Source of the DNA: Terriglobus albidus | GTDB lineage: Bacteria; Acidobacteriota; Terriglobia; Terriglobales; Acidobacteriaceae | Assembly (NCBI RefSeq): GCF_025685425.1 | Contig: NZ_JAGTAS010000056.1 | Coordinates: forward strand, 1-64,000 | Length of the DNA stretch: 64,000 bases | Reading direction: 5' to 3' | Shown: positions 18,137 through 63,656 of the stretch, piece after piece | Position numbering within the stretch: position 1 is the stretch's first letter | Layout of the letters: each line of letters begins with the position of its first letter | Program-made: the position numbers and the translations under genes | The notes under the pieces: model-generated | Told to the model about the DNA's origin: nothing | The model's database searches: none | Seen by the model: the letters and a program-made list of their open reading frames with translations, nothing else

Positions 18137-18194
18137 CTACTGTTTGGTTCGTCGAGTTAGCGGAAGAACGAAGGGTTCGAGGAGAGAAATATTC

Positions 18195-19460: not shown

Positions 19461-19518
19461 TTACTGCCTGGTTCGTTTGGACAACAGAAAAAGATTGGTT
19501 CTAAGGGAGAGAAATTTC

Positions 19519-20787: not shown

Positions 20788-20818
20788 TTATTTGCCTGGT
20801 TCGTTAGGAGAGAGTGCA

Positions 20819-21988
20819 ATGCGTTTACGGAATGTTCTTGTAGCCGGGGCTATCGCGGCCGGCAGTGTGGCCGGTTTTGCCCAGGTTACCGGCAGTGGAT
20901 CAACCAATACAGTTCCTAAATTCACCGGAAGCTCAACGATCGGTCCTTCGGCGATCTCCGAAGTAAATGGGAATGTCGGGATCGGCACGACAAACCCTGG
21001 AGCTTCTCGTTTGCAAGTTTCAGGCGGGAACGTCGCAGTTGATTCTGACCCTACTCCTAACCCTCTCCCCGGTGACAGCTCAGAAACAAACGCAACAAGG
21101 TATTTTCAGTGGAGTCGTGCATCGGACGGATGGACTCCTGCACGGATTGGACAGACTTACGGAATCACTTATGGTGGCAATCTTGTTTTCGACTTAAATT
21201 CAGGTGGCTCTCCTACATCTCTATTTACTGCAATGACGATTCTACAGAACGGCAACGTCGGGATTGGAATGGTCAATCCAGTAATGCCTCTGGATATTAA
21301 GCCCGATGCTAATAGCAATTGGATATCTTTGAATGATGGTAGCGGGCATGTCCTTGGAAGTTTTGGCCGCTCCGGCAACGGATTAATTATTGGAACCTGG
21401 TCCGGTGGTGCAAGCAATTTGATTCTAAATCCTACTGGCAACGTGGGCATCGGCACGACATCTCCAGCAACCAAACTCGATGTTAATGGAAGCGTGAAGA
21501 TCAGCGGTAGTGGCGCTTCGATGACCTTCCCTGATAACACAGTGCAATCGACGGCGTGGAATGGAACGACGTGCGGCGGAGACTATGCGGAATCCATCGA
21601 TGTCACCGGCGACCGTAAGTCTTATGGGCCGGGCGATGTGCTCGTCGTTGATCCGAAGGTCGCAGGCAAATTCCTTAAGTCCTCTGAGCCGTATGCCACC
21701 ACAGTGATGGGCATTTACTCCACGCAGCCGGGATTGACTGGACGTCGCGTTGGTGCTCAGAAGACAGGCGAAGAAGTTCCCATGGCGATGCTGGGGATTG
21801 TGCCCACCAAGGTGAGTACGGAGAACGGCCCTATCAAGCCTGGCGACCTGTTGGTGACCTCGTCGACTCCCGGATATGCGATGAAAGCTACGGACCGTTC
21901 TCGCATGGTGGGAGCTCTGATTGGAAAAGCCCTCGATTATCTCGATTCGGGAACGGGCCTGATCGAAGTCGGAATTGCCCTGCAGTAA
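20819..21988 (+). CDS. Exported fibre-like protein 4
   Basis: ATG 20819, with AGGAGAG just upstream, gives a 389-residue protein. The signal peptide is VLVAGAIAAGSVAGFAQ. Three repeats are visible (NGNVGIGTTNPGASRLQ, NGNVGIGMVNPVMPLDI and GNVGIGTTSPATKLDVNG) before the shared C-terminal module ending IEVGIALQ. The leader and first residues (MRLRNVLVA) are almost identical to those of fibre protein 5, while the C-terminal module matches protein 3. The middle section (SWASRASDGWTPARI-like, about residues 100-190) is unique to this copy. Confidence 0.6.
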   Translation: MRLRNVLVAGAIAAGSVAGFAQVTGSGSTNTVPKFTGSSTIGPSAISEVNGNVGIGTTNPGASRLQVSGGNVAVDSDPTPNPLPGDSSETNATRYFQWSRASDGWTPARIGQTYGITYGGNLVFDLNSGGSPTSLFTAMTILQNGNVGIGMVNPVMPLDIKPDANSNWISLNDGSGHVLGSFGRSGNGLIIGTWSGGASNLILNPTGNVGIGTTSPATKLDVNGSVKISGSGASMTFPDNTVQSTAWNGTTCGGDYAESIDVTGDRKSYGPGDVLVVDPKVAGKFLKSSEPYATTVMGIYSTQPGLTGRRVGAQKTGEEVPMAMLGIVPTKVSTENGPIKPGDLLVTSSTPGYAMKATDRSRMVGALIGKALDYLDSGTGLIEVGIALQ

Positions 21989-22020
21989 TGATTTGCTTGG
22001 TTCGTTAGGAGAAGAGTGCA

Positions 22021-23448
22021 ATGCGCTTACGGAATGTTCTTGTTGCTAGTGCTATCACTGCCGGAAGCATGGTTGGTTTTGCTCAGACAGTTACCGGTAG
22101 CGGATCGGCGGGTAAGCTTCCTGTCTTTACTACGACTGGATCCACGATCGGTGATTCGGTGATCTACCAAGCAACAAACGGCAATGTAGGGATAGGCACA
22201 ACATCGCCGGATGCTCCATTGAAGGTCAATACAAGCGCTGGAACTACAAAGATATTCGGACCAAATCTCGAGCTGAATAATTTCGGTGCTGAGTACAACC
22301 TCTCAGTGACCTCTGGGAACTTTAACATTCAAAACAATTCCGATGGAGGCGCGCCCGTCCGCTTTGCGATTCTGGGCGGCTCAGGGAATGTTGGCCTGGG
22401 AACCTCTTCTCCGCAACAAAATCTCTCAGTGCAGGGAGGAGCTGTTATCGACCAGGGAAATGCCAATGCTGGGGCCTTCGATAACAGTGGGCTACATTTC
22501 GGTTCCTCCAGCGGAGAAGGAATTGCTTCTTCGAGAAGCGGAACGAACAACACGTGGGGACTTGATTTCTACACAAACTTTCAAAAGCGTCTATCGATTA
22601 CGAATGTAGGAAGCGTCGGTATCGGAACATCAAATCCTCTGGGCTCTTTTGAAATAAGTGCTCCCGTAGGTGGCTTCGTAGTCTCAGGGCTGAATCTCGA
22701 TCCTCAGTGGAATTCTCTCAACCTGAGTCGAGTCGTTAATAGCGGTAAATTAGTTACCGGATGGAACCGCATGGGCGGTGATGGCGAGGCTGATTTTCTT
22801 GCCAATCGAGGCGGTGGGGGAACAGGAGGCTTTGCCTTCTACGATGTAACCAATGGTGGTTCCGTCAATCCTCTTTTGCGCCTTCATGGAAACGGCAATG
22901 TGGGCATCGGCACAATCCAACCCAGCGCAAAGCTGGAAGTAAACGGCAGCATCAAGCTCACATCTGGTAGTGGCGCGTCCATGACTTACCCCGATGGCAC
23001 CGTGCAGTCGACGGCATGGAACGGCACAACCTGCGGCGGCGACTATGCGGAATCAGTTGATGTCACCGGCGACCGCAAACGCTACGAGGCTGGAGACGTC
23101 CTGGTCATCGACGCTGACACACCGGACAAGTTCCTCCACTCCAGCGAACCCTACTCCAGATTCGTCGCCGGAATCTACTCCACCCGTCCGGGACTGACCG
23201 GCAGACGCGAGGGAAGAGCCAAGACCGGCGAAGAGGTCCCGATGGCCATGCTCGGCATCGTGCCCACCAAGGTAAGTGCAGAGAACGGAGTGATCCGCCC
23301 AGGAGACCTTCTGGTCTCTTCCGCCACGGAAGGCTACGCCATGAAGGGAACCGACTCCACCAGAATGATGGGCGCCGTGATCGGAAAAGCAATGGGACGT
23401 TTAGACAAGGGAACCGGAACGATCGAGGTTCTGGTGTCGCTGCAATAA
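22021..23448 (+). CDS. Exported fibre-like protein 5
   Basis: This is the longest copy (475 residues), starting at ATG 22021 behind AGGAGAAGAG. After the signal peptide (ITAGSMVGFAQ) there are four GNVGIGT-type repeats (GNVGIGTTSPDAPLKVN, GNVGLGTSSPQQNLSVQ, GSVGIGTSNPLGSFEIS, GNVGIGTIQPSAKLEVN). The common C-terminal module follows, ending IEVLVSLQ. Its module is closest to that of protein 1 (LLVSSATEGYAMKGTD). Repeat number grows from protein 1 to protein 5, so the family varies in shaft length as well as in sequence. Confidence 0.6.
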   Translation: MRLRNVLVASAITAGSMVGFAQTVTGSGSAGKLPVFTTTGSTIGDSVIYQATNGNVGIGTTSPDAPLKVNTSAGTTKIFGPNLELNNFGAEYNLSVTSGNFNIQNNSDGGAPVRFAILGGSGNVGLGTSSPQQNLSVQGGAVIDQGNANAGAFDNSGLHFGSSSGEGIASSRSGTNNTWGLDFYTNFQKRLSITNVGSVGIGTSNPLGSFEISAPVGGFVVSGLNLDPQWNSLNLSRVVNSGKLVTGWNRMGGDGEADFLANRGGGGTGGFAFYDVTNGGSVNPLLRLHGNGNVGIGTIQPSAKLEVNGSIKLTSGSGASMTYPDGTVQSTAWNGTTCGGDYAESVDVTGDRKRYEAGDVLVIDADTPDKFLHSSEPYSRFVAGIYSTRPGLTGRREGRAKTGEEVPMAMLGIVPTKVSAENGVIRPGDLLVSSATEGYAMKGTDSTRMMGAVIGKAMGRLDKGTGTIEVLVSLQ

Positions 23449-44289: not shown

Positions 44290-44364
44290 GGGCGCATAAC
44301 TCAGCGGTAGAGTGCCACCTTCACACGGTGGAAGTCGTAGGTTCGAATCCTGCTGTGCCCACCA
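44290..44364 (+). tRNA. tRNA-Val (anticodon CAC)
   Basis: GGGCGCA (44290-44296) pairs with TGTGCCC (44354-44360), with discriminator A and encoded CCA. The anticodon stem CCACC/GGTGG encloses TTCACAC, giving anticodon CAC at 44322-44324. The T arm is GGTTCGAATCC. Its 3' end is the probable attachment site of the integrase relic that follows. Confidence 0.95.
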
Positions 44365-44410
44365 TAAAATCAACAACTTACAGGCTGTGGCGAAATGGAT
44401 TTGATGCCAT

Positions 44411-44440
44411 TTGATGCCAAATTGCACCGGTTGGCATCAA
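44411..44440. repeat. Perfect 10-bp inverted repeat next to tRNA-Val
   Basis: TTGATGCCAA (44411-44420) and TTGGCATCAA (44431-44440) are exact inverse complements around a 10-base loop. TTGATGCCAT directly precedes it (44401-44410) as a near copy. It may be an integrase arm-type site or a terminator at the island edge. Confidence 0.5.
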
Positions 44441-44469
44441 GTGCGCCGGTTGTACCGGCTGCATCCTTC

Positions 44470-44715
44470 CTATGTCGCTGGCGGCTCGGTTGACTCTGCG
44501 GTGAGCATTTCGAAGACCGCGCCGACCATTTGTTGCACACTCTCCGGCAGCTCCTGCATGTACTCGTTTGCCGTCGTGTCGGCTCTTGAGTGCCACAGAT
44601 GCGACTGGACGTCCTTCATCGACCCCAGCTTTTGTGCACGCGTCGCAATCGTTCGGCGAAGCACCTGGAAGTTCAGCTTGGGAACTCGATCTTCCCAACC
44701 CGGCGCTGGCCACAA
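44470..44715 (-). pseudogene. C-terminal relic of a tyrosine recombinase (integrase)
   Basis: The remaining 81-codon frame holds LNFQVLRRTIATRAQKLG, the Arg-containing box II segment. It continues as QSHLWHSRADTTANEYMQ, which carries the second box with the His/Arg pair and the nucleophile tyrosine. The catalytic domain upstream is missing. The sequence before about 44695 joins abruptly to a relaxase fragment on the other strand. Full integrases are 300-400 residues. The position 106 bp downstream of tRNA-Val fits an element that integrated at the tRNA 3' end and then decayed. Confidence 0.75.
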
Positions 44716-45023
44716 TCGAAGACGTTGCGCGAAGCGGCGACATCACAGTCCGTATGGACAACCGCAGGGTTGTTACGTTCGACCCATTGGAGCTGCGGCA
44801 CTTTGATCACGGCTCCGCTGTCACGTCGCACAGCTCGCAAGGTTTGACTGCGGAACGTGTTCTGGTCAACGCAGACACCGAACTGCATCCTGAACTCCTC
44901 AATGCACGATTTGCCTATGTAGCAGTGTCTCGGGCGTCTCGCGAAGTCAACGTGTATACCAACCGTGCTTCCTCCCTTGGAGAAAAGCTTGGTCACGACA
45001 CTCCGAAAAGCTCAGCATTGGAG
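44703..45023 (+). pseudogene. C-terminal fragment of a MobF/TraA-type relaxase-helicase
   Basis: The frame reads ALATIEDVARSGDITVRMDN, then HGSAVTSHSSQGLTAERVLV and RFAYVAVSRASREVNVYT. These are the last helicase motifs (the SHSSQG and VAVSRA segments) of UvrD/RecD-like relaxase helicases found on conjugative plasmids and elements. More than 600 upstream residues are missing, and the fragment runs on into an unrelated frame, so it is a relic. It shows that the integrated element was once conjugative. Confidence 0.7.
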
Positions 45024-45179
45024 CTTTCCGCTAACGCATTGGGACATACGCCGAACACTGAGCAGGGCGCGAAGATTCCAGTCGTTATCCGAACGTCTTT
45101 CAGCTTCCCGTACGCAAGCAGCGATGCCTTGGGAGCCAGCGCATTTGCAAATGGCAGCATCTCAGGGGTCGCTCGCTGC

Positions 45180-45511
45180 CTGACTTGGCGGGGACAAGCG
45201 CTTTTCAAAACGATATATGAGTTCGCTCTTTATCCCATGATTCTCTGCGAAAGCAAACCTCAAACGATCATTGAATTGGGATCTGGCACCGGAGGGAAGG
45301 ACGCCTTCCCGACATCGAAGTCCTCTCCCATCTCAGCAAGTACACTCTTCCTGGGGACTACTTGATTGTTGAGGACAGTCTGACAAAGGCGGGCGAACTC
45401 GCCGTCATCGACCGAGTGTGGAGGGGAAAACTTGGCGTGGACACGAGATACACGGATTTTTTCGGAAGGAATGCCACCTCCTGCGTCGATTCAATTTTTA
45501 TAACAATTTAG
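45180..45511 (+). pseudogene. Internally deleted cephalosporin-hydroxylase-like methyltransferase gene
   Basis: The first part reads FKTIYEFALYPMILCESKPQ then TIIELGSGTGG, the beginning of the CmcI/cephalosporin hydroxylase family with its SAM-binding glycine loop. About 15 codons later, in another frame, the end of the same family is seen as DIEVLSHLSKYTLPGDYLIV followed by ED and, at the end, CVDSIFITI and a stop. Roughly 100 residues between them are absent. The gene is therefore broken by a deletion plus frameshift near 45290-45315. The fusion to the relaxase frame upstream is accidental. Confidence 0.6.
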
Positions 45512-45781: not shown

Positions 45782-46137
45782 CTAGAAGCTGTTGCCTGTC
45801 TTCGTCTCGCAGATCTGATCTGAAATGGCATCGTAAATTTTGGCGGCATGTGTTTGACGTCGTGTTGACCTGTGAGGCAATGCACATCGGGTCTTACGGG
45901 CGGTACGTAGGGGTAGTCTACACCGGCTACCTGCGTAATCTCTTTAGACGCCAGCTTCCTATAGATTCCTCGGGAGTCGCGCTCCATGCAGATATTCAAC
46001 GGGCAATCTACATAGACTTCGAGGAAGCCACGATGCAGCAGCTTTGCACGAGCCGACTCACGATCCTCAGCATCGGGCGAGACTGCACATATTAAGATGA
46101 TCAAGCCTTGCCTCATCAATATGAGTGCGTCCGCCAT
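45782..46137 (-). pseudogene. Frameshifted C-terminal half of an adenylylsulfate kinase (CysC-like)
   Basis: From about 46110 downward the minus strand reads RQGLIILICAVSPDAEDRE, then RGFLEVYVDCPLNICMERD and VDYPYVPPVRPDV. This is the second half of APS kinase, which phosphorylates adenylylsulfate. A frameshift near 45880 moves the ending to another frame (AAKIYDAISDQICETKTG, stop at 45782). The P-loop and everything before it are gone, so no kinase can be made. Sulfate-activation genes often ride with nodulation-like or surface-sulfation cargo. Confidence 0.65.
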
Positions 46138-46417
46138 TTAGGGCGGAATCGTGATCTCGAAGGGAGTCGAGGATATATCCAAAGAGACGGTGTGCTCCAT
46201 CTGCGGTGAGGGAATTCCGCATCCCGAAGTCATGTACTAAGCTCAGCATCGGCCGGTTACTGAGTCGTCTGAGATTCGACAGCAGGTTTCCTGTCTTCTG
46301 CTCGCGGTAGTTGTAGATCTCTTGTTCTGCAGCAGTCGTTGGAGCTACCTGCCGGTGCAGGTTCCGGATATGTTTGATTCGATCTACGACTTCTTCTCGA
46401 GAAACATGTTCGTACAT
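46067..46417 (-). CDS. Hypothetical protein overlapping the APS-kinase relic
   Basis: From ATG 46417 the frame encodes 116 residues (EHVSREEVVDRIKHIRNLHR, RRLSNRPMLSLVHDFGMRN), with an amphipathic helical character. It runs over the first part of the APS-kinase relic in a different frame, so its last 20 residues may be accidental. I recognise no family. It may be the truncated head of a larger gene that was joined to the kinase fragment by deletion. Confidence 0.3.
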   Translation of the reverse strand: MYEHVSREEVVDRIKHIRNLHRQVAPTTAAEQEIYNYREQKTGNLLSNLRRLSNRPMLSLVHDFGMRNSLTADGAHRLFGYILDSLRDHDSALNGGRTHIDEARLDHLNMCSLARC

Positions 46418-46572
46418 GATCCGGCAAGCTCCTCTTGAAAATCTCAATTTGGGAGTCGCAAAGACAGACGTACGCTACTGATCGACAACTACTATTTAGC
46501 ATAAGGACGTAGTCGGAACGAGAATGGTTACCCAGCTTCGAAGTCCACAATTGCCCAGCGAACTTTGAGAGC

Positions 46573-46597
46573 GTGACCAATTGTTACAAATCGTTAC
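46573..46597 (+). promoter_or_regulatory. Decamer boxes, locus A (three copies)
   Basis: GTGAC at 46573, GTTAC at 46583 and GTTAC at 46593 are spaced exactly 10 bp apart. The flanks CAATT/AAATC fit the shared consensus GTKACNAATC. TGTACT at 46620-46625, 22 bp after the last box, is a candidate -10. Confidence 0.7.
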
Positions 46598-46631
46598 CCT
46601 AAGCATGCTCTGAATGGGTTGTACTGATTAC

Positions 46632-46689
46632 ACCTAATCGTACTTGCATGCCGGCGTGTAACCACTGTTCCACCCGGCATGCTTTTTTT
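46632..46689 (+). ncRNA. Candidate small RNA, copy 1
   Basis: If transcription starts about 7 bp after TGTACT, the RNA would be about 58 nt. It would end in GCATGCCGG (46646-46654) paired with CCGGCATGC (46674-46682) and seven T (46683-46689), a textbook intrinsic terminator. The second copy at 53717-53773 keeps every stem base. Confidence 0.4.
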
Positions 46690-46769
46690 GCGAAAAAGGT
46701 GCAGCTCGGGATCGGGGTCAGGATGCTTCCGGTCACTACAAGCCCAGCGGTAGCGATTGCCTCTGCGAG

Positions 46770-46832
46770 GCTCCCCTCGTTTCTAAGTGTGCGGATGCGC
46801 ATTCCGAGACGCTGACAAATATCAGTTACCAC
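46770..46832 (-). pseudogene. Short relic with a DNA-binding-protein-like segment
   Basis: The minus strand reads DICQRLGMRIRTLRNEGS. This resembles either the opening of an XRE-type helix-turn-helix (LG-x-RIR-x-LR) or the final hairpin of an OmpR-type regulator (IRTIRNVGY in the intact regulator at 58.8-59.5 kb). It is too short to choose between them. Confidence 0.25.
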
Positions 46833-46916
46833 CTACTTAGCCTTTATAAGATTTATTAGAAGCAATGAGCTCGTGCTGATTGCTGTGTTTCGAAATCGAA
46901 TTAGGAAGATATAACG

Positions 46917-46943
46917 AAAAGCGCCTGTCACAGGGCGCTTTTT
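46917..46943. terminator. Intrinsic terminator hairpin
   Basis: AAAAGCGCC and GGCGCTTTTT arms (about 46917-46925 and 46934-46943) enclose a short loop. They have A- and T-runs suited to both strands. It would stop readthrough from the copy-1 element before the receptor gene. Confidence 0.6.
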
Positions 46944-49261: not shown

Positions 49262-49423
49262 AAATACCTTGACGTTGCCATGGGCCGTCTCCGGATCGTA
49301 TCCCGGCCAGTGCGTTGCATTGGCCGGAATCGTCTGCGTGGTTTTCTCAATGATCTGCTCGATGGTCTCGGCCGAGATCGATGGCGTGCGGCCGGGACGG
49401 CGCATCCTTGAGCGCCCGGAATG
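49262..49423 (-). mobile_element. Relic of an IS630-family transposase
   Basis: The minus strand reads RRPGRTPSISAETIEQIIEK, then TTQTIPANATHWP and VKVF. This is the helix-turn-helix/linker part of IS630-type transposases, in which a GRKPSIS segment is followed by ATHWS. The remainder, including the DDE domain, is missing. It lies immediately after the receptor stop codon. Confidence 0.65.
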
Positions 49424-49506
49424 CCGAGCGAGATATGCATATCCTCCGCCTGCGCAAGAAGCTTCATGAGCCCACACGAGCTCGACCACAACTGCGATAC
49501 GATTAG
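49411..49506 (+). pseudogene. Relic of an OmpR-type response-regulator DNA-binding domain (recognition helix)
   Basis: The plus strand encodes ARNAERDMHILRLRKKLHEP and soon stops. It matches the recognition-helix segment of the intact regulator at 58782-59528 (RSLDMHILRLRRKLTS). The receiver domain and the rest of the winged helix are missing. Confidence 0.6.
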
Positions 49507-49555
49507 CCGACGTTCTGAGGCCCGGATCGTCCCGGCTCGTGTGGATGAACCATTC

Positions 49556-49636
49556 CGCGTTGACAGGTTCACTGTCGACACGATGTCCCGAGAAATACGA
49601 TATGCAGACGTCAAACTGAACCTGCACGGGGTCGAA
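49556..49636 (+). pseudogene. Second response-regulator relic (start of the DNA-binding domain)
   Basis: RVDRFTVDTMSREIRYADVK resembles GEFTVDSPKQEVKYGNSTLR of the intact regulator, the first beta-strands of an OmpR-type C-terminal domain. It lies downstream of the recognition-helix relic, the reverse of the normal order, so at least two genes or a rearrangement are involved. Confidence 0.45.
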
Positions 49637-49914
49637 TCCGTTGCAGTCTGGGAAGTCCAATATCAAGCAGGACCATAGCCGGGGGCCTGCATCGCAAGAG
49701 TTCCAAAGCACGGCGGCCGTTATGAACGAATTCGGCGCTCAACTATGTTGTTCGAGAAAGCATGTCGGCGTGCGGCACATGGCGGCGTTACCATCCACGA
49801 TGATGACGGCCCGATGCATCGCTGGGTTGAGCTGTACCGGTTCTGAACTTTGCTTCTGTCCCACCTTGTGTATCGGCCTCTTTCTCACCTGCTGATTTGT
49901 TACATACACGAGTT
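49637..49914. other. Gap with no supported gene
   Basis: A short plus-strand frame ends with HDDDGPMHRWVELYRF and a stop at about 49852. I cannot assign it. The rest is probably decayed sequence before the locus B regulatory boxes. Confidence 0.35.
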
Positions 49915-50862: not shown

Positions 50863-50887
50863 GTGACCAATCGTTACGCAGTGCGAC
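50863..50887 (+). promoter_or_regulatory. Decamer boxes, locus C (three copies)
   Basis: GTGAC, GTTAC and GCGAC begin at 50863, 50873 and 50883. TTTAAT at 50910-50915, 22 bp on, is a candidate -10 for the secreted-protein gene at 50968. Confidence 0.75.
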
Positions 50888-50967: not shown

Positions 50968-51555
50968 ATGAACTTCTTTCCAGTTCCTCCCCATCTCACA
51001 ACCATCCGCGGTTCAGGCATGGCAGGTGCCGTCCTGATTCTGGGTTCCATGGGAGGCTCCGTGGCAGCTCAGCAATCAGTTGGCGGCCAACCCATTGGCG
51101 GCCCGCCTCCCCCATTCAAGCCGGTTGTGACTATTCGTTACGGCGGCGCGTACAACGGACCGCGCAATGCTCCCCAAAGAACCATTACCGGCCTGGTTAA
51201 GAACAAAGAAGGCGAGGTCATGTCGGAGGCGATGGTCTACCTCAAGGATATCCAAGGTAAATCCACACTTGTGGCAATCGTTGACTCCACCGGCAGCTTC
51301 CACTTCGGCCCCCTGTCTTTAGAGCACGACTATGAAGTTTGGGCGGAGGCAGGCGAACTGAAATCTCCAAAGAGGTCAATCAGTACATTTATGGCACAGA
51401 ACGAGGTCTCGCTACCGCTGTTGGTAGATGTGCCAGAGAGACATCAGGGTGAGCCCACCTTAAAACGCCGGCCTGAGGCCCCCGCTTCTACAGAGCCTCG
51501 GGCTTCAGAGGGAGCGCAGCTTGGGCGACAGAAGGAGCAGATATCGAAGAACTAA
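50968..51555 (+). CDS. Secreted protein with a carboxypeptidase-regulatory-like beta-sandwich
   Basis: The 195-residue protein has an N-terminal export segment (MAGAVLILGSMGGSVAAQQ) and a Gly/Pro-rich linker. One CarboxypepD_reg-like domain lies at about residues 70-150 (ITGLVKNKEGEVMSEAMVYL, then GSFHFGPLSLEHDYEVWAE). The C-terminus is charged and Glu/Arg-rich. The domain is the same type as the N-terminus of the Oar-like receptor but here stands alone, without a barrel. It may bind a surface glycan or protein, with no enzymatic motif. The locus C boxes lie 80-105 bp before its ATG. Confidence 0.7.
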   Translation: MNFFPVPPHLTTIRGSGMAGAVLILGSMGGSVAAQQSVGGQPIGGPPPPFKPVVTIRYGGAYNGPRNAPQRTITGLVKNKEGEVMSEAMVYLKDIQGKSTLVAIVDSTGSFHFGPLSLEHDYEVWAEAGELKSPKRSISTFMAQNEVSLPLLVDVPERHQGEPTLKRRPEAPASTEPRASEGAQLGRQKEQISKN

Positions 51556-51723: not shown

Positions 51724-51738
51724 GTTACACATCGTTAC
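51724..51738 (+). promoter_or_regulatory. Decamer boxes, locus D (two copies)
   Basis: GTTAC at 51724 and 51734, each followed by AC-x-T-C, sit 10 bp apart. CATACCCT with TACCCT at 51761, 22 bp on, could be the -10 for the GH27 gene at 51817. Confidence 0.65.
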
Positions 51739-51816: not shown

Positions 51817-53442
51817 ATGTTGCTAAGCCGCGTCGGTCTTTTGCTTCTCTACCTGTTTTTCGCTTTCCAGATGCCGCACCCTCTACCCGCCCAGGCTAAA
51901 GATATCTCCGGCACTTGGGTCGCCAAGACGGAGGGTCCGATGGGAGCTATGGAAATCGTCTATGTTCTGAAGGTCAAGGACGGACATATCACGGGCCAGC
52001 AATCCCTCCCCTTTGGCGATTCACCGATTACGGATGGTGTCATTAACGGCGAAACCTTCCATTTCACTGTCGAGCTGGAGTCCTTTGGCACGCTGAGCAA
52101 ACGCGAAGTCAACGGCAAAATTGTTGGCGACACTCTGAAGCTCACGCCGGTGATGCCCGTGCCGCCCCCGGGGGCCGTAGAAGCACCGCCAACCACGAAT
52201 ACGTCCCCAGCCGCTGGTGCCTCACCGATGCCGTTACTTCACATTGGAGAAGTCACGGCAGTGCGCGGTACTCCCACACCGTCGTACCGCGCACCCGCGG
52301 TGGATTACTCAAATCTGCCGAAGATTGTGTTGCCGACTCTTCATACGAGTGACTATAACGGCTTGGCGAAGACACCGCCAATGGGTTGGAACTCTTGGAA
52401 CAAGTTTCAGACTCACATCGACGACAAGACAGTACGTGGTATCGCCGACGCGATGGCCGCGAACGGCATGAAGGCCGCGGGATACGAGTACATAATCATT
52501 GACGACGGCTGGCAGGGTAAGCGAGACGAACAGGGTATCCTGCAGCCCAATCCGAATTTCCCAGACATGAAGGCGCTCGCAGAGTACGTCCACGGTAGAG
52601 GGCTAAAGATCGGTATCTACTCCTCACCCGGGCCCCGCACTTGCGGAGGCTTCGAGGGAAGCTACGGACACGAGGCTCAGGACGCCAGGACTTGGGCTGC
52701 ATGGGGCATGGACTACCTGAAATACGACTGGTGTAGTGCCTCACGCGTTTGGAAAGAGACAGAGATGCAGGCCGTCTATCAGCTCATGGGCGATGCACTA
52801 CAGTCTACGGGCCGCTCGATCGTTTACGCGCTTTGCCAGTATGGACGGGCCGACGTCGAACAATGGGCGCCGCTGGTCGGTGGCAACCTGTACCGCACCA
52901 CGAGTGATATTCGCGACAGCTACGATTCCATGACGAGCATCGGCTTCGCACAAAGCCGCCTCGCGTCCTTTTCCGGTCCTGGCCATTGGAACGATCCGGA
53001 CATGCTCGAAGTCGGCAATGGCCGCATGAGTCAAGACGAGTACCGCACTCACTTTGCACTTTGGGCAATGATCGCCGCGCCACTTATCGCCGGTAACGAT
53101 CTTCGGGATATGACGCCCGAGACACACGAACTGCTTACCAACAAGGAGATTATCGCAGTCGACCAAGACGCGCTTGGTGCGGGTGGCAAGGAGTTATACA
53201 AGGAAGGCGACATTCGTGTCTGGAGCAAGCCTTTGGCGTCAGGCGACGTGGCGATTGCGGTTTTCAACACGGGAAGCGCAGCGCAGACCGTCACTCTGTC
53301 CAAGCAACGTCTTGGCCTCGACAGCCAGTTTGCCGCTCAAAATCTGATTCTTCATAAAGCGGTGAGCGAAGACCAGGGTGTGATGGCAGTTCGGATTGCA
53401 CCACATGGGGTAAGCATGTTCCGTTTTCACAAGAAGCCGTGA
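51817..53442 (+). CDS. Secreted GH27 alpha-galactosidase with an extra N-terminal domain
   Basis: The 541-residue protein has a signal peptide (LLLLYLFFAFQMPHPLPAQA). A beta domain of about 100 residues follows (DISGTWVAKTEGPMGAMEIV), then a Pro/Thr linker and a GH27 TIM barrel from about residue 185. Motifs seen are PPMGWNSWNKFQTHID, YEYIIIDDGWQ, MDYLKYDWC (nucleophile aspartate), the SDIRDSY acid/base region and GHWNDPDMLEVG. The small beta domain typical of GH27 ends the protein. It should release terminal alpha-galactose from oligosaccharides outside the cell or in the periplasm. It follows the locus D boxes by about 80 bp and stands alone. Confidence 0.93.
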   Translation: MLLSRVGLLLLYLFFAFQMPHPLPAQAKDISGTWVAKTEGPMGAMEIVYVLKVKDGHITGQQSLPFGDSPITDGVINGETFHFTVELESFGTLSKREVNGKIVGDTLKLTPVMPVPPPGAVEAPPTTNTSPAAGASPMPLLHIGEVTAVRGTPTPSYRAPAVDYSNLPKIVLPTLHTSDYNGLAKTPPMGWNSWNKFQTHIDDKTVRGIADAMAANGMKAAGYEYIIIDDGWQGKRDEQGILQPNPNFPDMKALAEYVHGRGLKIGIYSSPGPRTCGGFEGSYGHEAQDARTWAAWGMDYLKYDWCSASRVWKETEMQAVYQLMGDALQSTGRSIVYALCQYGRADVEQWAPLVGGNLYRTTSDIRDSYDSMTSIGFAQSRLASFSGPGHWNDPDMLEVGNGRMSQDEYRTHFALWAMIAAPLIAGNDLRDMTPETHELLTNKEIIAVDQDALGAGGKELYKEGDIRVWSKPLASGDVAIAVFNTGSAAQTVTLSKQRLGLDSQFAAQNLILHKAVSEDQGVMAVRIAPHGVSMFRFHKKP

Positions 53443-53667
53443 CTCGATCTGCACAGGGCAATATTTGAGACCGAGCACGGCGTGCCTTGATCCATTGTGA
53501 AATCTTGTGTGGCGCTCGGCATCAGGCTGTCGCAGCTTTTGCGCCAGATCGAGGTGATGTCAAAGATTTGAGGGCACGTTACTTTGTGCGCGGTAGTTTG
53601 CGCTGAAAAAATCGCTTCAACTTTTACTCAGGACTTGGCTGGAGCCGCCAGGACAAAGTTCAAGATC

Positions 53668-53682
53668 GTGACCAATTGTTAC
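53668..53682 (+). promoter_or_regulatory. Decamer boxes, locus E (two copies)
   Basis: GTGAC at 53668 and GTTAC at 53678, 10 bp apart. TGTACC at 53705-53710, 22 bp after the second box, occupies the same place as in copy 1. Confidence 0.65.
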
Positions 53683-53716
53683 CCTGAACATGCTCTGAAT
53701 AGGTTGTACCGATTGC

Positions 53717-53773
53717 ACCTAAACATACTTGCATGCCGGCGTGTGATCACTGTTCCACCCGGCATGCTTTTTT
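53717..53773 (+). ncRNA. Candidate small RNA, copy 2
   Basis: Matches 46632-46689 by position. The terminator stem GCATGCCGG (53731-53739) pairs with CCGGCATGC (53759-53767), followed by six T. Differences from copy 1 fall in the loop and the 5' part, not in the stem. Confidence 0.4.
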
Positions 53774-53871
53774 GCGCGAAACTGTACAGTTCGGGATAAG
53801 GGTCACGATGTATGGAGTATCTGCGCTTTAATTACGGTGTAGATGAAGGGACCTATCGAATCTTCTAGATT

Positions 53872-54342
53872 CATGGGCCGGGGCCACAAACACTCGGCTT
53901 TGCTGGACTATGGACGCTGTTCGTGCCAGAGTTCCGCGAGGAGGTACGTTTCCGTTATCTGGGTGTCCAGAAGATTCATAACGTAGAGACGGATGTCATC
54001 GCCCTTGCACAGATTCCCGGAAGATCAATTCCAGGCTTCATCAAGATGGAGGCCCACACCCTGCCCATGTTACAGCAGGGGTTTGCATGGATCGACCGTG
54101 AAACCGGTCATATCCTCAAGATCCGAACAGAATTGCTCGCGCCTATCCCGGAGATTGAGATGCAACAGCTTACTTCTTCAATTGAATTTAGTGCCGTCCA
54201 CATCACCGGTGTCCACGAGATCTTCTGGCTTCCCAGGCAAGTGGATGTCCGGATGAACTGGCATCAACGCTGCGGAGGCGAACTGCACAAATACAGCAAT
54301 TATCGGCTCTTCACGGCAACGATCAGGATACTGCCCCAGTGA
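53872..54342 (+). pseudogene. N-terminally truncated gene of a secreted acidobacterial protein
   Basis: Open from the TAG just before 53872, the frame reads TLGFAGLWTLFVPEFREEVR, FAWIDRETGHILKIRTEL and ITGVHEIFWLPRQVDV, ending at 54342. It looks like the C-terminal half of a beta-rich secreted protein in which a WIDRETG segment precedes a VHI-x-G strand. No signal peptide or proper start remains, and the missing part would lie where repeat copy 2 now ends. GTG 53923 could restart translation, but a functional product is doubtful. Confidence 0.45.
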
Positions 54343-54483: not shown

Positions 54484-54921
54484 TTACTCTGGCGGTGGGG
54501 GCGGGTCCCCTGGGTTTGGTCCCCCATCCGGACCGGATTCCATGCGTTTCTTCTCTTCAGCCACCTGCCGGTCGAAGTCCTTACGTTGCGCTTCGTTGAG
54601 CAGAGAACGGATCTCTTCGTTCGAGCGATCCCGAATGGCCGTGATCTTGGGGAACTTATCTTGCATGGATGTCTCTTGATCGGCGAGGAGCTTCTCAATC
54701 GCGTCCTTGCGCCGCTGCAATATCGGAAGAATCCTTGTCTTTTGATCGTCCGATAACTTCAGGACCTTGTTCATGCGCTTGAGTTCTTTGTCGGGATTAC
54801 TTCGATCCGCCATGGGTGGCGGGTCTCCCATTGGCATCTGGGCCCATGAACGAGATCCGGGACAGATCGAGAGCATGAGCGCGCCAACTATGGAAAGAGT
54901 AATAAGCGTTCGCTGGGACAT
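54484..54921 (-). CDS. Small secreted Spy/CpxP-like helical protein
   Basis: The 145-residue protein has a signal peptide (LITLSIVGALMLSICPG) and a Met/Pro-rich stretch. A helical hairpin follows (LKRMNKVLKLSDDQKTRILP and SNEEIRSLLNEAQRKDFDR), and the C-terminus is Pro/Gly-rich. The KLSDDQK and LNEAQRKDF segments resemble the LTxxQ helices of Spy/CpxP periplasmic chaperones and metal-resistance proteins. A chaperone or stress-sensor role in the periplasm is likely but not proven. The locus F boxes lie about 50 bp before its start, in the same orientation. Confidence 0.65.
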   Translation of the reverse strand: MSQRTLITLSIVGALMLSICPGSRSWAQMPMGDPPPMADRSNPDKELKRMNKVLKLSDDQKTRILPILQRRKDAIEKLLADQETSMQDKFPKITAIRDRSNEEIRSLLNEAQRKDFDRQVAEEKKRMESGPDGGPNPGDPPPPPE

Positions 54922-54972: not shown

Positions 54973-54997
54973 GTCATATTGGGTAACGATTTGTAAC
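54973..54997 (-). promoter_or_regulatory. Decamer boxes, locus F (three copies, minus strand)
   Basis: On the minus strand GTTAC, GTTAC and ATGAC occur at 10-bp spacing (complements at 54993, 54983 and 54973). TAGGAT (54950 down to 54945) begins 22 bp after the last box as a candidate -10 for the Spy-like gene. Confidence 0.75.
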
Positions 54998-56815: not shown

Positions 56816-58636
56816 TCATTCCTGGGGAGGCGCCGGTGACACTGCCTCCGGTGAGGGGGCGGTGGCCGGCGCGCCGGGGCGAATCTCAATTGTTTGGCTG
56901 GTTCCTGTATCCACGATGGATGTGCTTCCGTTTCCTACCTGCGGCATGCGAATAATCCGCGGTGTGATGGCGAAGACTACCTCGCTATTCACGACTTCAT
57001 GTTTCTGCGAGCTAAACAGATATTTCAAAAGCGGAATCTCTCCGAGGCCTGGAGTTCCGGAAACGCTGCGGGTGTCATCTTTTTCCAGGATTCCTCCCAT
57101 GAGATTTACTTCTCCTTCCGTAAGCCGAACCGTTTGCTCGATGGTCTTCTGGCCAATGATGGGCTCGCTGATGCCGCCGATATCGCTAGTACCTGTCTCC
57201 GAAGAAACCTCGATCTTCATTTTTACGGTGACATCATGATTGGAGTGGATAGTTGGCTGCATATCGACATTCACGCCGACGTCGATGTACTGGTACTGCG
57301 TATTTACGAGAGAACTGGTGGTTGTACTGGTTGTAGAAGAGTAGGAGCCGGTAGCCACAGGAATGCGGGAACCGATCTTGAGGGTCGCTTTCTGCCCGTC
57401 GCTGGCACGCATTTTGGGATTCTGCAGAATCCGCGTATCGCTGTCGCTGAGCAGCATGTTGAGGGTTGCTTGTCCGATGGTTACGGAAACGTTCGAAGCA
57501 TTCAGGTGGGCAACATCATTGAGGCTCAAGTTCGAGGAAGAACTGGACGAGGAAGAAGAACTACTGGAACTGCTACTGGAGCTGCTGCTGGACGATGAGG
57601 TAGTTTGAAGGCCTAGGCTGATCGACGAAGGCAAGGTGATTCCCATATTGCGGAGCTTGTCTCGGCTCACCTGAAGAATCGAGACGTCAAAAACCACCTC
57701 CGCATGCGGCTTATCGAGGTCGTCGATCATCAACTTCGTTAAATACAACTGGTCCGGCGTTCCGCGGACGGTGATTGCGTTCTGACTGGGGACGCCGAAG
57801 ACCTTGAAGGAAGAATCTCCTCCAAAGAGATTGCGGATGGCGGTAAGGACTTCATTTAGATCGTTCTGCTGGGAGACATTTGCCAGATAGAAAGTCTGCA
57901 GAGCCTGGGTTTCATACTCGGTTCGTTTCGCTTTGGTATCGGCTGCGACAAAAATGGTATGTGCCGTAACAGGGGATACGAAGGTTTGGGAGATCCGTTG
58001 GATGACCCGCAGGGCATCCTGCATATTCTCGTTCACCAAATCGACGGAGATGCGTCGCGGCGGAAGCTCTGGGTCAAAAAGTACGTTGAGGCCATTGATC
58101 TTTCCAAAAGCCTGGTAGACGGCTCGTACATCTTCGACCATATGCAGCGTGATGGAGTCCGGCTGGAGTGGCTTCATCGGAACCGGGCCAGATGGACGGC
58201 GCTCATCCTCGGGAGACATCCTGGCTGGGGATACGGCAGGGATTGGCTTGCCTGCCAGGCTCTCCCGCTTCAACCTTTCGAGAACGACCGTGGCCATTTC
58301 ATTGGTCTCGTCGACTGCGATCGCATGCAGGACTCTCACCATTGCACCTTGGATGTCTCCTTCCTTCTCACGCTCCTCCCCCTCTTTCAGATAAGCCATC
58401 GAGGCAAACGGCCGAAGACGGTTGAAAGATGCAAGATAACGCATGTCTTCGGGTGCGGATTGGTGTGCATGTTCATACGCAGTGAAGGCAGCAATGACGT
58501 CATTGCGCGTCTCCGCCTTTTGGCCCTGACGAAAATAGTCCTTTGCAGAAGTCGGACGTGCAGGCTCTGCATTTAGCAGTAAAACGATGAAGACGCAGAG
58601 CCACAGCGATTTGCGAGGGCTATCCAGGGGCAGCAT
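56816..58636 (-). CDS. Secretin-like protein with a 22-residue serine tract
   Basis: I choose ATG 58636 (606 residues). The longer start at GTG 58675 lies inside the regulatory boxes. The signal peptide is LWLCVFIVLLLNAEPA. TPR-like helices, a DUF-like N-domain (VEDVRAVYQAFGKINGLNVL), an NolW/N1-type domain (LTAIRNLFGGDSSFKVFGVP) and the secretin core follow. The core carries VVFDVSILQVSRDKLRNMGI, ATLKIGSRIPVATGSYS, YIDVGVNVDMQP, GVPGLGEIPLLKYLFSS-type segments and VVFAITPRIIR. Residues about 347-368 are all serine, encoded by a mixture of TCN and AGY codons. It is coupled to the second secretin. Confidence 0.85.
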   Translation of the reverse strand: MLPLDSPRKSLWLCVFIVLLLNAEPARPTSAKDYFRQGQKAETRNDVIAAFTAYEHAHQSAPEDMRYLASFNRLRPFASMAYLKEGEEREKEGDIQGAMVRVLHAIAVDETNEMATVVLERLKRESLAGKPIPAVSPARMSPEDERRPSGPVPMKPLQPDSITLHMVEDVRAVYQAFGKINGLNVLFDPELPPRRISVDLVNENMQDALRVIQRISQTFVSPVTAHTIFVAADTKAKRTEYETQALQTFYLANVSQQNDLNEVLTAIRNLFGGDSSFKVFGVPSQNAITVRGTPDQLYLTKLMIDDLDKPHAEVVFDVSILQVSRDKLRNMGITLPSSISLGLQTTSSSSSSSSSSSSSSSSSSSSSSNLSLNDVAHLNASNVSVTIGQATLNMLLSDSDTRILQNPKMRASDGQKATLKIGSRIPVATGSYSSTTSTTTSSLVNTQYQYIDVGVNVDMQPTIHSNHDVTVKMKIEVSSETGTSDIGGISEPIIGQKTIEQTVRLTEGEVNLMGGILEKDDTRSVSGTPGLGEIPLLKYLFSSQKHEVVNSEVVFAITPRIIRMPQVGNGSTSIVDTGTSQTIEIRPGAPATAPSPEAVSPAPPQE

Positions 58637-58670
58637 ACTTTCAAAGACGTAGCGGCTACGATTTGGATTT

Positions 58671-58695
58671 GTCACGATTGGTCACTGTTGGTCAC
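58671..58695 (-). promoter_or_regulatory. Decamer boxes, locus G (three copies, minus strand)
   Basis: GTCAC at 58671, 58681 and 58691 is GTGAC on the minus strand, exactly 10 bp apart. The boxes end 35 bp before the secretin start at 58636. No strong -10 stands out in this short leader. Confidence 0.7.
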
Positions 58696-58781: not shown

Positions 58782-59528
58782 TCAGTTCCGATCCGATCCT
58801 GGATGAAGTAAGAACATGTATCCCACGTTGCGAATAGTGCGTATCGTTCCGTTGAAGTGTACGGACGTCAGTTTTCGACGCAGCCGGAGGATGTGCATAT
58901 CGAGGCTCCGCCCCTGAGATTCTGCGGCTCTTCCCATGGTCCGTCGTATCAACTCGTCGCGATTGAGCACGTCATACGATCGGAGAAGAAAGAGGCGCAA
59001 TAGCAGAAATTCGATTTGCGTGAGCCGCAGCGTAGAGTTTCCGTATTTCACCTCCTGTTTGGGGCTATCCACGGTAAATTCGCCGACCATAAAGGAGTCG
59101 GACGATTCCGGTCCAATGTGAAACGAAGAGCGGCGAAGTACGGCTCCCATGCGAGCCAAAAGCTCCCGCACACTGAACGGCTTGGTGAGATAGTCATCGG
59201 CACCCAGTTCGATTCCTAGAATGCGGTCGGCTTCTTCTCCCTTCGCACTGATGATAAGGATGGGAGTAAACCGTTCCCGCCGTAGACGCCGAAGTACCTC
59301 GAAGCCATCGCAATCGGGCAGAAGCAGGTCGAGCAGAATCAAATCAGGACGACATTGAGAGGTGAGTTCGAGGCCACCTTTCCCAGTCGGCACCGGATGT
59401 ACCTCCCATCCACATTTCTCTAAGAAGTCGCGGAGCATCTCGCAAAACTCGTCATCATCATCGATGATGACGACCCGCTTACGTTGAGCTGGATACCTGG
59501 CGCTTCCGTATCCGCTGTTTGTGTGCAC
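58782..59528 (-). CDS. OmpR/PhoB-family response regulator without a linked kinase
   Basis: The 248-residue protein begins at GTG 59528 with GGAGG 5 bases upstream. The receiver domain (about 17-130) has the acidic pocket VVIIDDDDEF, the phosphoacceptor region LILLDLLLPDCDG, ILIISAKGE and DDYLTKPFSVREL. A winged-helix DNA-binding domain follows (EFTVDSPKQEVKYGNSTLRL, MHILRLRRKLTS, IRTIRNVGYMFLLHP). When phosphorylated such proteins bind direct repeats with 10-11 bp spacing. No histidine kinase gene is in the window. It is the prime candidate to bind the GTKACNAATC decamers. Confidence 0.93.
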   Translation of the reverse strand: MHTNSGYGSARYPAQRKRVVIIDDDDEFCEMLRDFLEKCGWEVHPVPTGKGGLELTSQCRPDLILLDLLLPDCDGFEVLRRLRRERFTPILIISAKGEEADRILGIELGADDYLTKPFSVRELLARMGAVLRRSSFHIGPESSDSFMVGEFTVDSPKQEVKYGNSTLRLTQIEFLLLRLFLLRSYDVLNRDELIRRTMGRAAESQGRSLDMHILRLRRKLTSVHFNGTIRTIRNVGYMFLLHPGSDRN

Positions 59529-59557: not shown

Positions 59558-59582
59558 GTTACATACCGTGACAAATCGTTTC
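59558..59582 (+). promoter_or_regulatory. Decamer boxes, locus H (three copies)
   Basis: GTTAC, GTGAC and GTTTC begin at 59558, 59568 and 59578. They lie 30 bp in front of the response-regulator start codon but point the other way, which could mean autorepression or an unseen plus-strand transcript. Confidence 0.65.
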
Positions 59583-60701: not shown

Positions 60702-60726
60702 GTTACCCGTCGTGACGAATCGTTAC
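60702..60726 (+). promoter_or_regulatory. Decamer boxes, locus I (three copies)
   Basis: GTTAC, GTGAC and GTTAC begin at 60702, 60712 and 60722. TATACA at 60752-60757, 25 bp after the last box, is a good -10 for the protease gene. Confidence 0.8.
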
Positions 60727-60782
60727 AGATCGAGTGTGCACCTTCGCCGTCTATACAAGACAAAAGTATGACGGACCACAAT

Positions 60783-63656
60783 ATGAACACGTATGTCTCG
60801 CGCTTCTTGAAGAGCGAAGCCATTGATATTCGCCGGCTCGTAGCTGCTCTGATCCTGATGCTGCTGGTTTCAAGCTTGAGCTGCGGTTACGCACTTGCAC
60901 AGACGATACATGCCCGAATCACACAAGAAATTACCAACCAAAGCCGTGTGACCTTGACGGGTTCACATCCCCCGATGGCTCGTTCAGAACAAGATGCCGG
61001 GCGGGTCCCCTCGGACAAGCCGCTTAGCGGGTTGGCGCTCGTCTTTAGCCGAACAGAAGATCAAGAAAATGAGTTGCAAGCCTTGTTGGCTGCCCAGCAA
61101 AATCCGTCATCCTCGCAATATCATCAATGGTTATCACCGGACGAATTTGCGGCACGCTTCGGAGTTGCCGATTCCGATATCGAAAAGGCCGAAGCTTGGT
61201 TGCAGCAGCAGGGATTCACTGTCACCGGCGTAGCACGTGGCAAGAACAGAATTACCTTCTCTGGCACGGTGGGACAGGTCGAGTCCGCCTTTGGCACCCA
61301 ACTGCACTATTACAAATCCGGCTCGCAAACCGAATTTGCTCCCTCCACCGACATCTCTCTCCCTGCCGCGCTCTCATCGGTGGTTCAGACGGTCTCCAAT
61401 CTATCGAGCTTCAGACCAAAGCCACACGTAAGATTCAAGCCCGCTCAGAAAGCCTCTTCGATCTCGGCGAACTTCACCTCAAGTCAGTCGGGAAGCCACT
61501 TTCTAAGCCCCAAGGATGTTGCCACCATCTACGACATTAACCCCGTCTACAATTCCGGCTACAAAGGTAGCGGCCAAGCCATTGCCGTTGTAGGACAGTC
61601 GGACGTTCAGCTCTCTGACATTGAACACTTCCAGTCAGCTGCGGGCTTTACGGTGAAGGACCCTACTCTTGTGCTGGTGCCTAACTCGGGAAGTTCCACC
61701 TACTATACCGGGGGAGATGAGGCAGAATCCGACCTGGATTTGGAATACACCAGCACGATCGCTCCCGAGGCCACAATCTATTTTGTCTACACGGGCAACA
61801 ATCAGAACTACGGCGTCTTCGATGCCTTGCAATATGCCATCGACACGAACCTCGCTCCCATCATCAGCGTAAGCTACGGCGAGTGCGAGACGGCTCTTGG
61901 CTCTACGGACTACAAAACCTATAACGGAATCCTGGCACAAGCGGCCTCACAGGGACAGACGGTGGTCGTCGCGGCGGGCGACTCAGGCTCAACGGACTGC
62001 TACGAGCAAACCAGCCTCAGCACCTCTCAACGTCAGGCTCTCGCCGTCGATTTTCCCGCCAGCAGCCAGTACGTCACCGGCATGGGTGGTACCGAATTTC
62101 CTTCTGCGGACGTATCCTCCTCGAACACCACCTATTGGGAATCAGCCGGTGGTAGTGATGTCGTTTCGTCGGCAAAATCTTATGTTCCCGAACAGGTCTG
62201 GAACGATGATTCCTCCAGTAGCGGCCTTTCGTCGGGCGGTGGGGGTATCAGTACCTTTACCTCCCGCCCCAGTTGGCAAACCGGCGTTACCGGCATTTCC
62301 TCGGGAAGCTATCGGCTCGTTCCAGACATCTCTCTCGATTCTTCCCCTGACAACGCAGGCTATCTCTTCTGTTCGAGTGACTCTGACGCTACCGGTGTCA
62401 GTGGAAGCTGTTCCAACGGATTTCGTGACAGCAACAGTACTTACCTTACAGTCGCTGGTGGTACCAGCTTTGCATCCCCGATCTTCTCCGGCATGATGGC
62501 CCTGATCAACCAGAAGCTCAACTCCACTGGTCAGGGAGTTATCAACTCCACCCTCTATCAACTGGCATCGAGCTCCAGCACCTATGCTTCCGCCTTTCAT
62601 GACATCACCAGCGGAAGCAATGCCTGCACCGCGGGCTCAAGCTATTGCTCAGGGAGCGCCACAAGCCAATATGCCGCCACGACCGGATACGATGAAGCCA
62701 CCGGTCTGGGCTCCATCGATTTCTATAACCTCTTTTCCGCCTGGCCAACCCCAACCAACACATCTTCAAAGAGCTCTTCGAAAACGACCCTGACTGCTGC
62801 CACGACTTCTCCGAGTTCCGGAGCGAACGACGTGGTGACCATCACGGTTGCCTCGGGATCGAGTTCCGCCACATCTACACCCACCGGTACCCTATCGATC
62901 GCCGTGGACGGCACGACCGTGAACTCATCGTTGGCGCTTACAAGCGGAACCGCCGCCTATACCTTCTCGTCAACCACCTCCGGCACTCACGTCGTAAGCG
63001 CCACCTACTCTGGTGATAGTACGTATGCCAGTTCTTCGGGGGTGATTACGCTCACGATTGGCTCGACAAGCGGTACTACGTCTGGAAGCGGCGGTTCGGG
63101 TTCAACCACGGTGACTGCCACTCCCTCTGGGGGCTTTACCGGCACCGTGTCCTACTCTCTGTCGACATCCAACACCTATTTGCAACAATATGCTTGCTAC
63201 GACCTCTCGGACGCCTCCGTTACGGGCACAAGCGCCGTCAGTGAAACGCTCACCATCTATCTGGGGACCACATACTGCGCGAATGCCCAGCGCAAAGGAA
63301 AGATGCATGGTTTCACTCAGGTCGCTCAAACAAATTCCAGTGCTCTTCCAGGAGGCGCCCTATCAGGGATAGCCGGTATCTTTGCGGCTGGCCTGGTCTG
63401 CCTACGACGCCGACGTCTTCGTTCGCTCTGGTTGCTCGTACTCGTAGGGGTAAGCATGAGCTTTGCGCTCACCGGATGTGGAAGCAGCAATGGTTCATCG
63501 TCTTCCTCCAAGAGTTTCACCGTTTCAATTTCGCCATCCACTGTAACGCTTTCTGCGGGAAGTTCAGGGGTGCCCACGGGCACTTATAGCGTCACGATCA
63601 AAGGCACTTCGGGATCTCTATCCTCTTCAACAACGCTCACCCTGACGGTCAATTGA
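60783..63656 (+). CDS. Secreted S53 (sedolisin/pro-kumamolisin) protease with Ig-like C-terminal repeats
   Basis: From ATG 60783 the protease is 957 residues. ATG 60768 would leave almost no leader after the -10 at 60752. A signal peptide ends in YALAQ, and a pro-kumamolisin activation domain runs to about 200 (QYHQWLSPDEFAARFGV). The S53 catalytic domain shows DEAESDLDLEY (Glu/Asp pair), ISVSYGECE (oxyanion region), AAGDSGSTDCYE and VAGGTSFASPIFSGM (catalytic serine). S53 enzymes are acid-active serine-carboxyl peptidases. The C-terminus adds Ig-like repeats, a hydrophobic and arginine-rich anchor-like segment, and a lipobox-like FALTGC followed by another Ig-like strand set. It lies directly behind the locus I boxes. 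Confidence 0.92.
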   Translation: MNTYVSRFLKSEAIDIRRLVAALILMLLVSSLSCGYALAQTIHARITQEITNQSRVTLTGSHPPMARSEQDAGRVPSDKPLSGLALVFSRTEDQENELQALLAAQQNPSSSQYHQWLSPDEFAARFGVADSDIEKAEAWLQQQGFTVTGVARGKNRITFSGTVGQVESAFGTQLHYYKSGSQTEFAPSTDISLPAALSSVVQTVSNLSSFRPKPHVRFKPAQKASSISANFTSSQSGSHFLSPKDVATIYDINPVYNSGYKGSGQAIAVVGQSDVQLSDIEHFQSAAGFTVKDPTLVLVPNSGSSTYYTGGDEAESDLDLEYTSTIAPEATIYFVYTGNNQNYGVFDALQYAIDTNLAPIISVSYGECETALGSTDYKTYNGILAQAASQGQTVVVAAGDSGSTDCYEQTSLSTSQRQALAVDFPASSQYVTGMGGTEFPSADVSSSNTTYWESAGGSDVVSSAKSYVPEQVWNDDSSSSGLSSGGGGISTFTSRPSWQTGVTGISSGSYRLVPDISLDSSPDNAGYLFCSSDSDATGVSGSCSNGFRDSNSTYLTVAGGTSFASPIFSGMMALINQKLNSTGQGVINSTLYQLASSSSTYASAFHDITSGSNACTAGSSYCSGSATSQYAATTGYDEATGLGSIDFYNLFSAWPTPTNTSSKSSSKTTLTAATTSPSSGANDVVTITVASGSSSATSTPTGTLSIAVDGTTVNSSLALTSGTAAYTFSSTTSGTHVVSATYSGDSTYASSSGVITLTIGSTSGTTSGSGGSGSTTVTATPSGGFTGTVSYSLSTSNTYLQQYACYDLSDASVTGTSAVSETLTIYLGTTYCANAQRKGKMHGFTQVAQTNSSALPGGALSGIAGIFAAGLVCLRRRRLRSLWLLVLVGVSMSFALTGCGSSNGSSSSSKSFTVSISPSTVTLSAGSSGVPTGTYSVTIKGTSGSLSSSTTLTLTVN

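Follow-up and report, generated by a model that had tools for sequence, protein, structure and literature searches.

Within the window analysed here, the first 64,000 nt of a Terriglobus albidus contig, a noncoding element occurs twice, at 46580-46725 and 53665-53810 (Table 1). The two copies are 83% identical over an ungapped alignment of 146 nt and carry their parts in the same order, confirming the duplication described in the original prediction. They lie 7.1 kb apart, not in tandem, and 17 of 142 aligned positions differ between them. A search of the whole 6.1-Mb genome found the element at these two places only (the second at E 3.1e-34), a pattern distinct from the many dispersed copies that mark mobile repeats of the REP or MITE type. 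No Rfam 15 family reached its gathering score for the element (best 15.7 bits against a cut-off of 50), the only Rfam matches in the window being two tRNAs. A DNA similarity search with the element returned nothing from 100 relatives and nothing from a plasmid collection, and a literature search showed no paper on the element or its regulon among those listed. Compared by BLAST with the collected loci (E ≤ 0.1), the copies matched only themselves and a 17-nt stretch of boxes near 54990. For this reason, the 46 stretches in genome contigs and 53 in viral contigs returned by stem-loop pattern scans were dismissed as chance.

Table 1 Features of the twin element and of the surrounding putative regulon in the window
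Feature	Position	Strand	Basis or remark
Copy 1 operator, three GTKAC boxes with a 10-bp period (GTGACcaattGTTACaaatcGTTAC)	46573..46597	+	Box scan; period 10 specific
Copy 1 TTGTAC	46619-46624
Copy 1 proposed -10, TACTGA, 24 nt past the last box	46622..46627	+	Co-regulated promoters
Copy 1 predicted RNA, ~56 nt	46634..46689	+	Start taken 7 nt past the -10
Copy 1 hairpin, 9-bp outer stem GCATGCCGG/CCGGCATGC plus inner pairs	46646..46682	+	Folding, covariation
Copy 1 stem arms	46646-46654 / 46674-46682
Copy 1 T7 tract, predicted intrinsic terminator	46683..46689	+	Terminator score
Copy 1 sequence after the T tract, common to both copies up to an ATG	46690..46725	+	No long frame after
Copy 2 operator, two GTKAC boxes	53668..53682	+	One decamer fewer than copy 1
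Copy 2 TTGTAC	53704-53709
Copy 2 proposed -10, TACCGA, 24 nt past the last box	53707..53712	+	Co-regulated promoters
Copy 2 predicted RNA, ~55 nt	53719..53773	+	Predicted
Copy 2 hairpin	53731..53767	+	Folding, covariation
Copy 2 stem arms	53731-53739 / 53759-53767
Copy 2 T6 tract	53768..53773	+	Terminator score
Array of two boxes, 90 nt before CarboxypepD_reg-like gene 50968-51555	50863..50877	+
Array of two boxes, 78 nt before alpha-galactosidase-family gene 51817-53442	51724..51738	+
Two-box array upstream of small gene 54484-54921(-)	54983..54997	-
Array of three boxes where secretin gene 56816-58675(-) starts	58671..58695	-
Response regulator of the OmpR/PhoB type (Response_reg + Trans_reg_C), candidate regulator	58782..59528	-	One of three on the contig
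Three-box array, 41 nt before Pro-kuma_activ/peptidase gene 60768-63656	60702..60726	+	Example regulon promoter

Behind copy 1, no long frame is found before a bidirectional terminator-like site at 46916-46943. The 139-aa frame behind copy 2 corresponds to the C-terminal part of 327-386 aa frames found elsewhere and, since only this part is matched, we regard the frame as a truncated remnant. This 5'-truncated remnant, at 53923-54342, has a full-length paralogue at G000:C18:165617, G000 being this genome. The stretch 44290-45365 contains a tRNA gene, then an integrase-like C-terminal fragment (44470-44715, minus strand) and a TraI-like fragment (44568-45365, plus strand), as judged by eye; the integrase-like fragment has a 69% identical match at C50:78611-79228 on the same contig. 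This raises the question of whether the tRNA and the two fragments are the edges of an old mobile island. Elsewhere in the window, five tandem paralogous genes with repeats of ~300 nt occupy 17120-23448, and a frame at 49421-49678 looks by eye like the C-terminal part of the response regulator, possibly another remnant.

The statement that no open frame spans the element does not strictly hold. A frame that starts at an ATG within the stem runs for 55 codons in copy 1 and for 32 in copy 2; it is maintained between the copies via two compensating indels, and a mechanically called 77-aa frame on the minus strand (46599-46832) also crosses copy 1. Protein coding from the stem ATG was considered and rejected, given the amino-acid changes between the copies and the loss in the same-genus genome G008, judged by eye, of the register between frame and stem. 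From the downstream ATG that both copies share, 30 codons are open in copy 1 and 7 in copy 2, and the sequence likeness of the copies stops at this ATG.

The hairpin has a minimum free energy of -23.2 kcal/mol in each copy (z -5.1 and -4.9), and none of 200 shuffles was as good. The expected T-run does follow the stem in both copies, T7 in copy 1 and T6 in copy 2, and both score as terminators (+25.8 and +17.1, respectively) by a d'Aubenton-type formula. The hairpins are missing from a separate terminator scan of both regions because that scan admits loops of 3-8 only. The idea of a kept stem with a varied loop was upheld in part: all 18 stem bases are the same and 2 of 19 loop bases differ, but the sparing of the hairpin as a whole (2 of 37 aligned positions differ, versus 15 of 105 in the rest) is not significant (Fisher p 0.24). 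An inner pairing, AAC/GTT in one copy, becomes GAT/GTT in the other and can still pair via G-U.

A hairpin followed by a T tract might be the plain terminator of an upstream gene, and copy 2 does lie on the same strand as the alpha-galactosidase-family gene, 289 nt past its stop codon at 53442. However, a predicted operator and promoter stand immediately upstream of the hairpin in both copies, and the nearest listed frames upstream of copy 1 (46067-46447 and 46257-46580) are on the other strand. We consider a plain terminator highly improbable. Another explanation is that a promoter-leader unit was duplicated in a rearranged island and is now useless. The broken surroundings would fit such a relic, including the remnant gene behind copy 2 and the fragments named by eye as integrase-like and TraI-like beside the tRNA (44.4-45.4 kb), as would the differences between the copies and the lack of significant sparing. 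However, both copies retain all 18 stem bases, the motif of the boxes and the 24-nt distance from box to -10 despite the other changes, and a relic seems to us improbable, if less so than a plain terminator.

The boxes are tandem decamers of the form GTKAC-N5, with two to three repeats. The 17-nt BLAST match near 54990 falls on them, and we therefore scanned for GTKAC-N5-GTKAC. The window contains 14 such pairs, versus 0.30 expected from Markov shuffles, and four further regions (L138, L140, L141, L143) contain 7, 9, 8 and 7, versus 0.05-0.15 expected. L138 is the next 16 kb of the same contig (0.05 expected); the following 15 kb, L139, hold no box pair. In C50:42001-95000, GTKAC pairs occur 21 times at distance 10 and at most once at other distances from 5 to 19, with a second peak at 20. 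Genome-wide, 8 of the 10 sites within one mismatch of GTGACCAATCGTTAC and 14 of the 24 within two mismatches fall in C50:46-77 kb. At three mismatches there is no genome-wide enrichment (93 sites versus 122 in the reversed control), indicating that the box signal is local.

A frame of at least 79 codons begins within 250 nt downstream of 13 of the 16 arrays in C50:42-95 kb, a count that includes the remnant gene behind copy 2. The three arrays without such a frame are that of copy 1, one at 51127 within a reading frame, and one at 59558. Among the genes with an array, the small gene 54484-54921(-) shows a weak LTXXQ/Spy-like match under the cut-off. A second duplicated intergenic pair with decamer arrays was seen in G008 (L140, 1807-1817 and 7387-7397, both on the minus strand); its members are 90.5% identical across 169 nt, lack a strong hairpin and are not closely followed by a frame.

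TTGTAC had been taken as the -10 motif. Judged from the co-regulated promoters, the hexamers three bases 3' of it are more likely, and the -10 is probably TACTGA in copy 1 and TACCGA in copy 2, 24 nt past the last box. Of 35 arrays from five genomes, 8 have a TA that starts 24 nt past the last GTKAC, compared with a mean of 2.1 per offset, a modest signal, and the common bases past this box are T24 (19/35), C26 (19/35) and T27 (21/35). The homologous elements read TACTGC at this place in G008 and TACTAT in G291, a genome of another genus. A sigma-70-type scan found no -35/-10 pair in the region of either copy, which would be expected if an activator replaces the -35.

Besides the candidate regulator in the window, the contig encodes two further response regulators, located at 66989 and at 69238, as well as a histidine kinase (69969-71366), all beyond the window. 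A search with the kinase (E ≤ 1e-80) found it in 24 of 398 family genomes, 18 of which were examined for arrays. Arrays were seen in G000, G007, G008, G011 and G291 and in all 11 further regions; they are absent from the regions read of the kinase-bearing G005 and G016, and from one (L153) of the three kinase places in G011. The 11 further regions contain 19 box pairs, versus 1.1 expected in all. In 10 of these 11 relatives the response-regulator gene has an array close upstream (within ~100 nt, from coordinates); in the exception, G185, the regulator search matched best to a different gene at the region edge. This position upstream of the regulator gene is sequence evidence for the decamers serving as operator of this OmpR/PhoB-type regulator family. 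Both copies of the element thus have a predicted OmpR-family operator at their putative promoter, recognised through the arrays. Since arrays are common to the cluster genes and also stand upstream of the response-regulator gene in relatives, membership of the element in the regulon of the two-component system is well supported at the sequence level.

Related clusters with a regulator-kinase pair are present in the same-genus genomes G007, G008 and G011 and in G291. All four include genes for a membrane-fusion protein, two RND proteins and an outer-membrane efflux protein and a small CarboxypepD_reg-like gene, the G007 content being among the matches listed and Pfam having been applied to part of the clusters. 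The same-genus clusters also contain two secretins; those of G007 and G008 further include a related peptidase. In contrast to these four genomes, we saw no RND transporter gene in C50:42001-95000 of G000, where the kinase, the three regulators and an OEP-family gene are found.

Promoter and hairpin together have homologues in these relatives. In G008, the hairpin GTATGCCGAGGCC...GGGCCTCGGCATAC, with GTTTTC after it, stands behind an array at an unchanged distance, and its loop contains CTGTTCC as in the window copies. A covariance-model search for further copies in related genomes had been proposed. The first model, built from three sequences (the window copies and G008) and searched against 250 family genomes, did yield a new strong match, in G291 (GCATGCTGG/CCAGCATGC; 62.3 bits, E 3.4e-10, with G291 absent from the model). 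A weak match in G007 (31.7 bits, E 0.002) retains the boxes and promoter with an altered hairpin of ordinary stability (z -0.92). With a second model (R2), matches at E ≤ 0.1 came from 5 of 398 family genomes, including G124 (hairpin only) and G007, and matches at E ≤ 0.05 from 4 of 298 genomes order-wide, all of them previously found. In the four-member alignment, all 36 stem pair cells contain standard pairs, and both sides have changed in 3 of 9 pairs; a compensatory-change score as high was reached by 7 of 500 shuffles, and slid structures show none. The covariation is supportive rather than proof, because the four sequences include two paralogues and the alignment was fitted to the model. 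When 24 leaders were folded, the lowest z values (-6.4, -4.1, -2.9 and -2.6) belonged to the four element members; the next were -2.08 and -2.05.

The relatives also bear on whether the hairpin is part of an mRNA. In G291 a CarboxypepD_reg-like gene begins, at an ATG, 16 nt past the hairpin, with GAGG between, and the U-tracts are weak in both G008 and G291 (terminator scores -20.7 and -17.2). On these grounds, what is conserved may be a hairpin of the 5' UTR that has turned free-standing in the T. albidus genome. A rival reading holds that the unit provides a regulon gene with its promoter and leader, the hairpin acting in cis on the mRNA through attenuation, stability or start-site masking, and that the window copies are orphaned leaders. 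The likeness of these copies as far as an ATG and no further would agree with this, as would the G008 gene of the CarboxypepD_reg-like family: its promoter is similar and a shorter hairpin precedes its SD, although the stability of the 75-nt leader is unremarkable (z -0.67). However, a regulated gene directly downstream, as a cis leader would have, is seen in G291 and behind neither window copy, where no long frame follows the shared ATG. Furthermore, both window copies have good U-tracts, and the remaining regulon leaders (19 of the 24 folded) never fall below z -2.08. Orphaned cis leaders are a less likely explanation than a small RNA pair, though not as improbable as a relic.

The reading we favour, at a probability of about one half, is a sibling pair of ~55-nt self-terminating RNAs under response-regulator control, most likely leader-derived and acting in trans. 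The proposed regulator-controlled small RNA in two copies thereby stands in part: the arrays, the compensatory changes in the hairpin and the terminator quality speak for it, and the leader position of the G291 hairpin and the weak U-tracts in G008 and G291 speak against it. Further points against it are the small number of genomes with homologues, the lack of a target common to the members, the absence of arrays from the regions read of G005 and G016, the negative sigma-70-type scan, the missing genome-wide excess at three mismatches and the modest TA signal. Promoter binding by the regulator, the start site, the transcript, action in trans and the targets are what we infer from these features. 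The OmpR/PhoB-family regulator of the two-component system would bind the tandem GTKAC-N5 decamers, which would stand in for a -35, and RNA polymerase would start from TACTGA or TACCGA 24 nt downstream of the boxes. The ~55-nt RNA would fold into the 9-bp hairpin and stop at the U7 or U6 tract. The two paralogous copies would yield a pair of sibling small RNAs, probably derived from the leader of a regulon gene and acting in trans within an envelope/efflux stress response. Genes of the Hfq family occur in the genome. When targets were sought by duplex energy, none was common to the element members, and the top match for G291 was its own leader. One gene at z -3.4 and -3.0 for the two copies was set aside, having an uncertain start codon and no G008 counterpart.

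Several known systems resemble parts of this arrangement. The BaeSR regulon of Escherichia coli and Salmonella includes mdtABC and spy; similarly, the regulator-kinase pair of the relatives lies beside MFP-RND-RND-OMF genes, and the gene with the sub-threshold LTXXQ/Spy-like match has an array. However, the putative regulon described here differs in its box sequence, its secretins and peptidase and its predicted hairpin RNA, and C50:42-95 kb has the OEP-family gene with no RND gene seen. Actinobacterial OmpR-family regulators of the MtrA type recognise GTAAC-like direct repeats, the complement of GTTAC. The boxes compared with them here are predicted ones, and the phylum and partner genes are different. 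The closest analogue in action may be OmrA/OmrB, enterobacterial sibling sRNAs under EnvZ/OmpR with an outer-membrane/envelope regulon (PMC4211561; PMC12692685). Each case would involve a pair of related short RNAs controlled by a two-component system of the OmpR type, those of T. albidus being predicted. However, the predicted RNA is ~55 nt and mostly hairpin, whereas OmrB has 82 nt (PMC4211561), and OmrA/OmrB are in tandem. The likeness is functional, and homology is not claimed.

Annotated sRNAs are few outside Proteobacteria and Terrabacteria, with 4 given for Acidobacteria in the table of a review (PMC9029176). The element could represent a new hairpin-RNA family that became trans-acting by detachment from a regulon gene's leader, with the leader state kept in G291, a free-standing state in G008 and T. 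albidus, and duplication with strong terminators in T. albidus, yielding a sibling sRNA pair within a two-component envelope/efflux regulon; we offer this tentatively. Our analysis defines a predicted decamer operator and a local regulon, with named promoters, for a two-component system spread over the family, and points to a possible transition from leader to sRNA across three related lineages.
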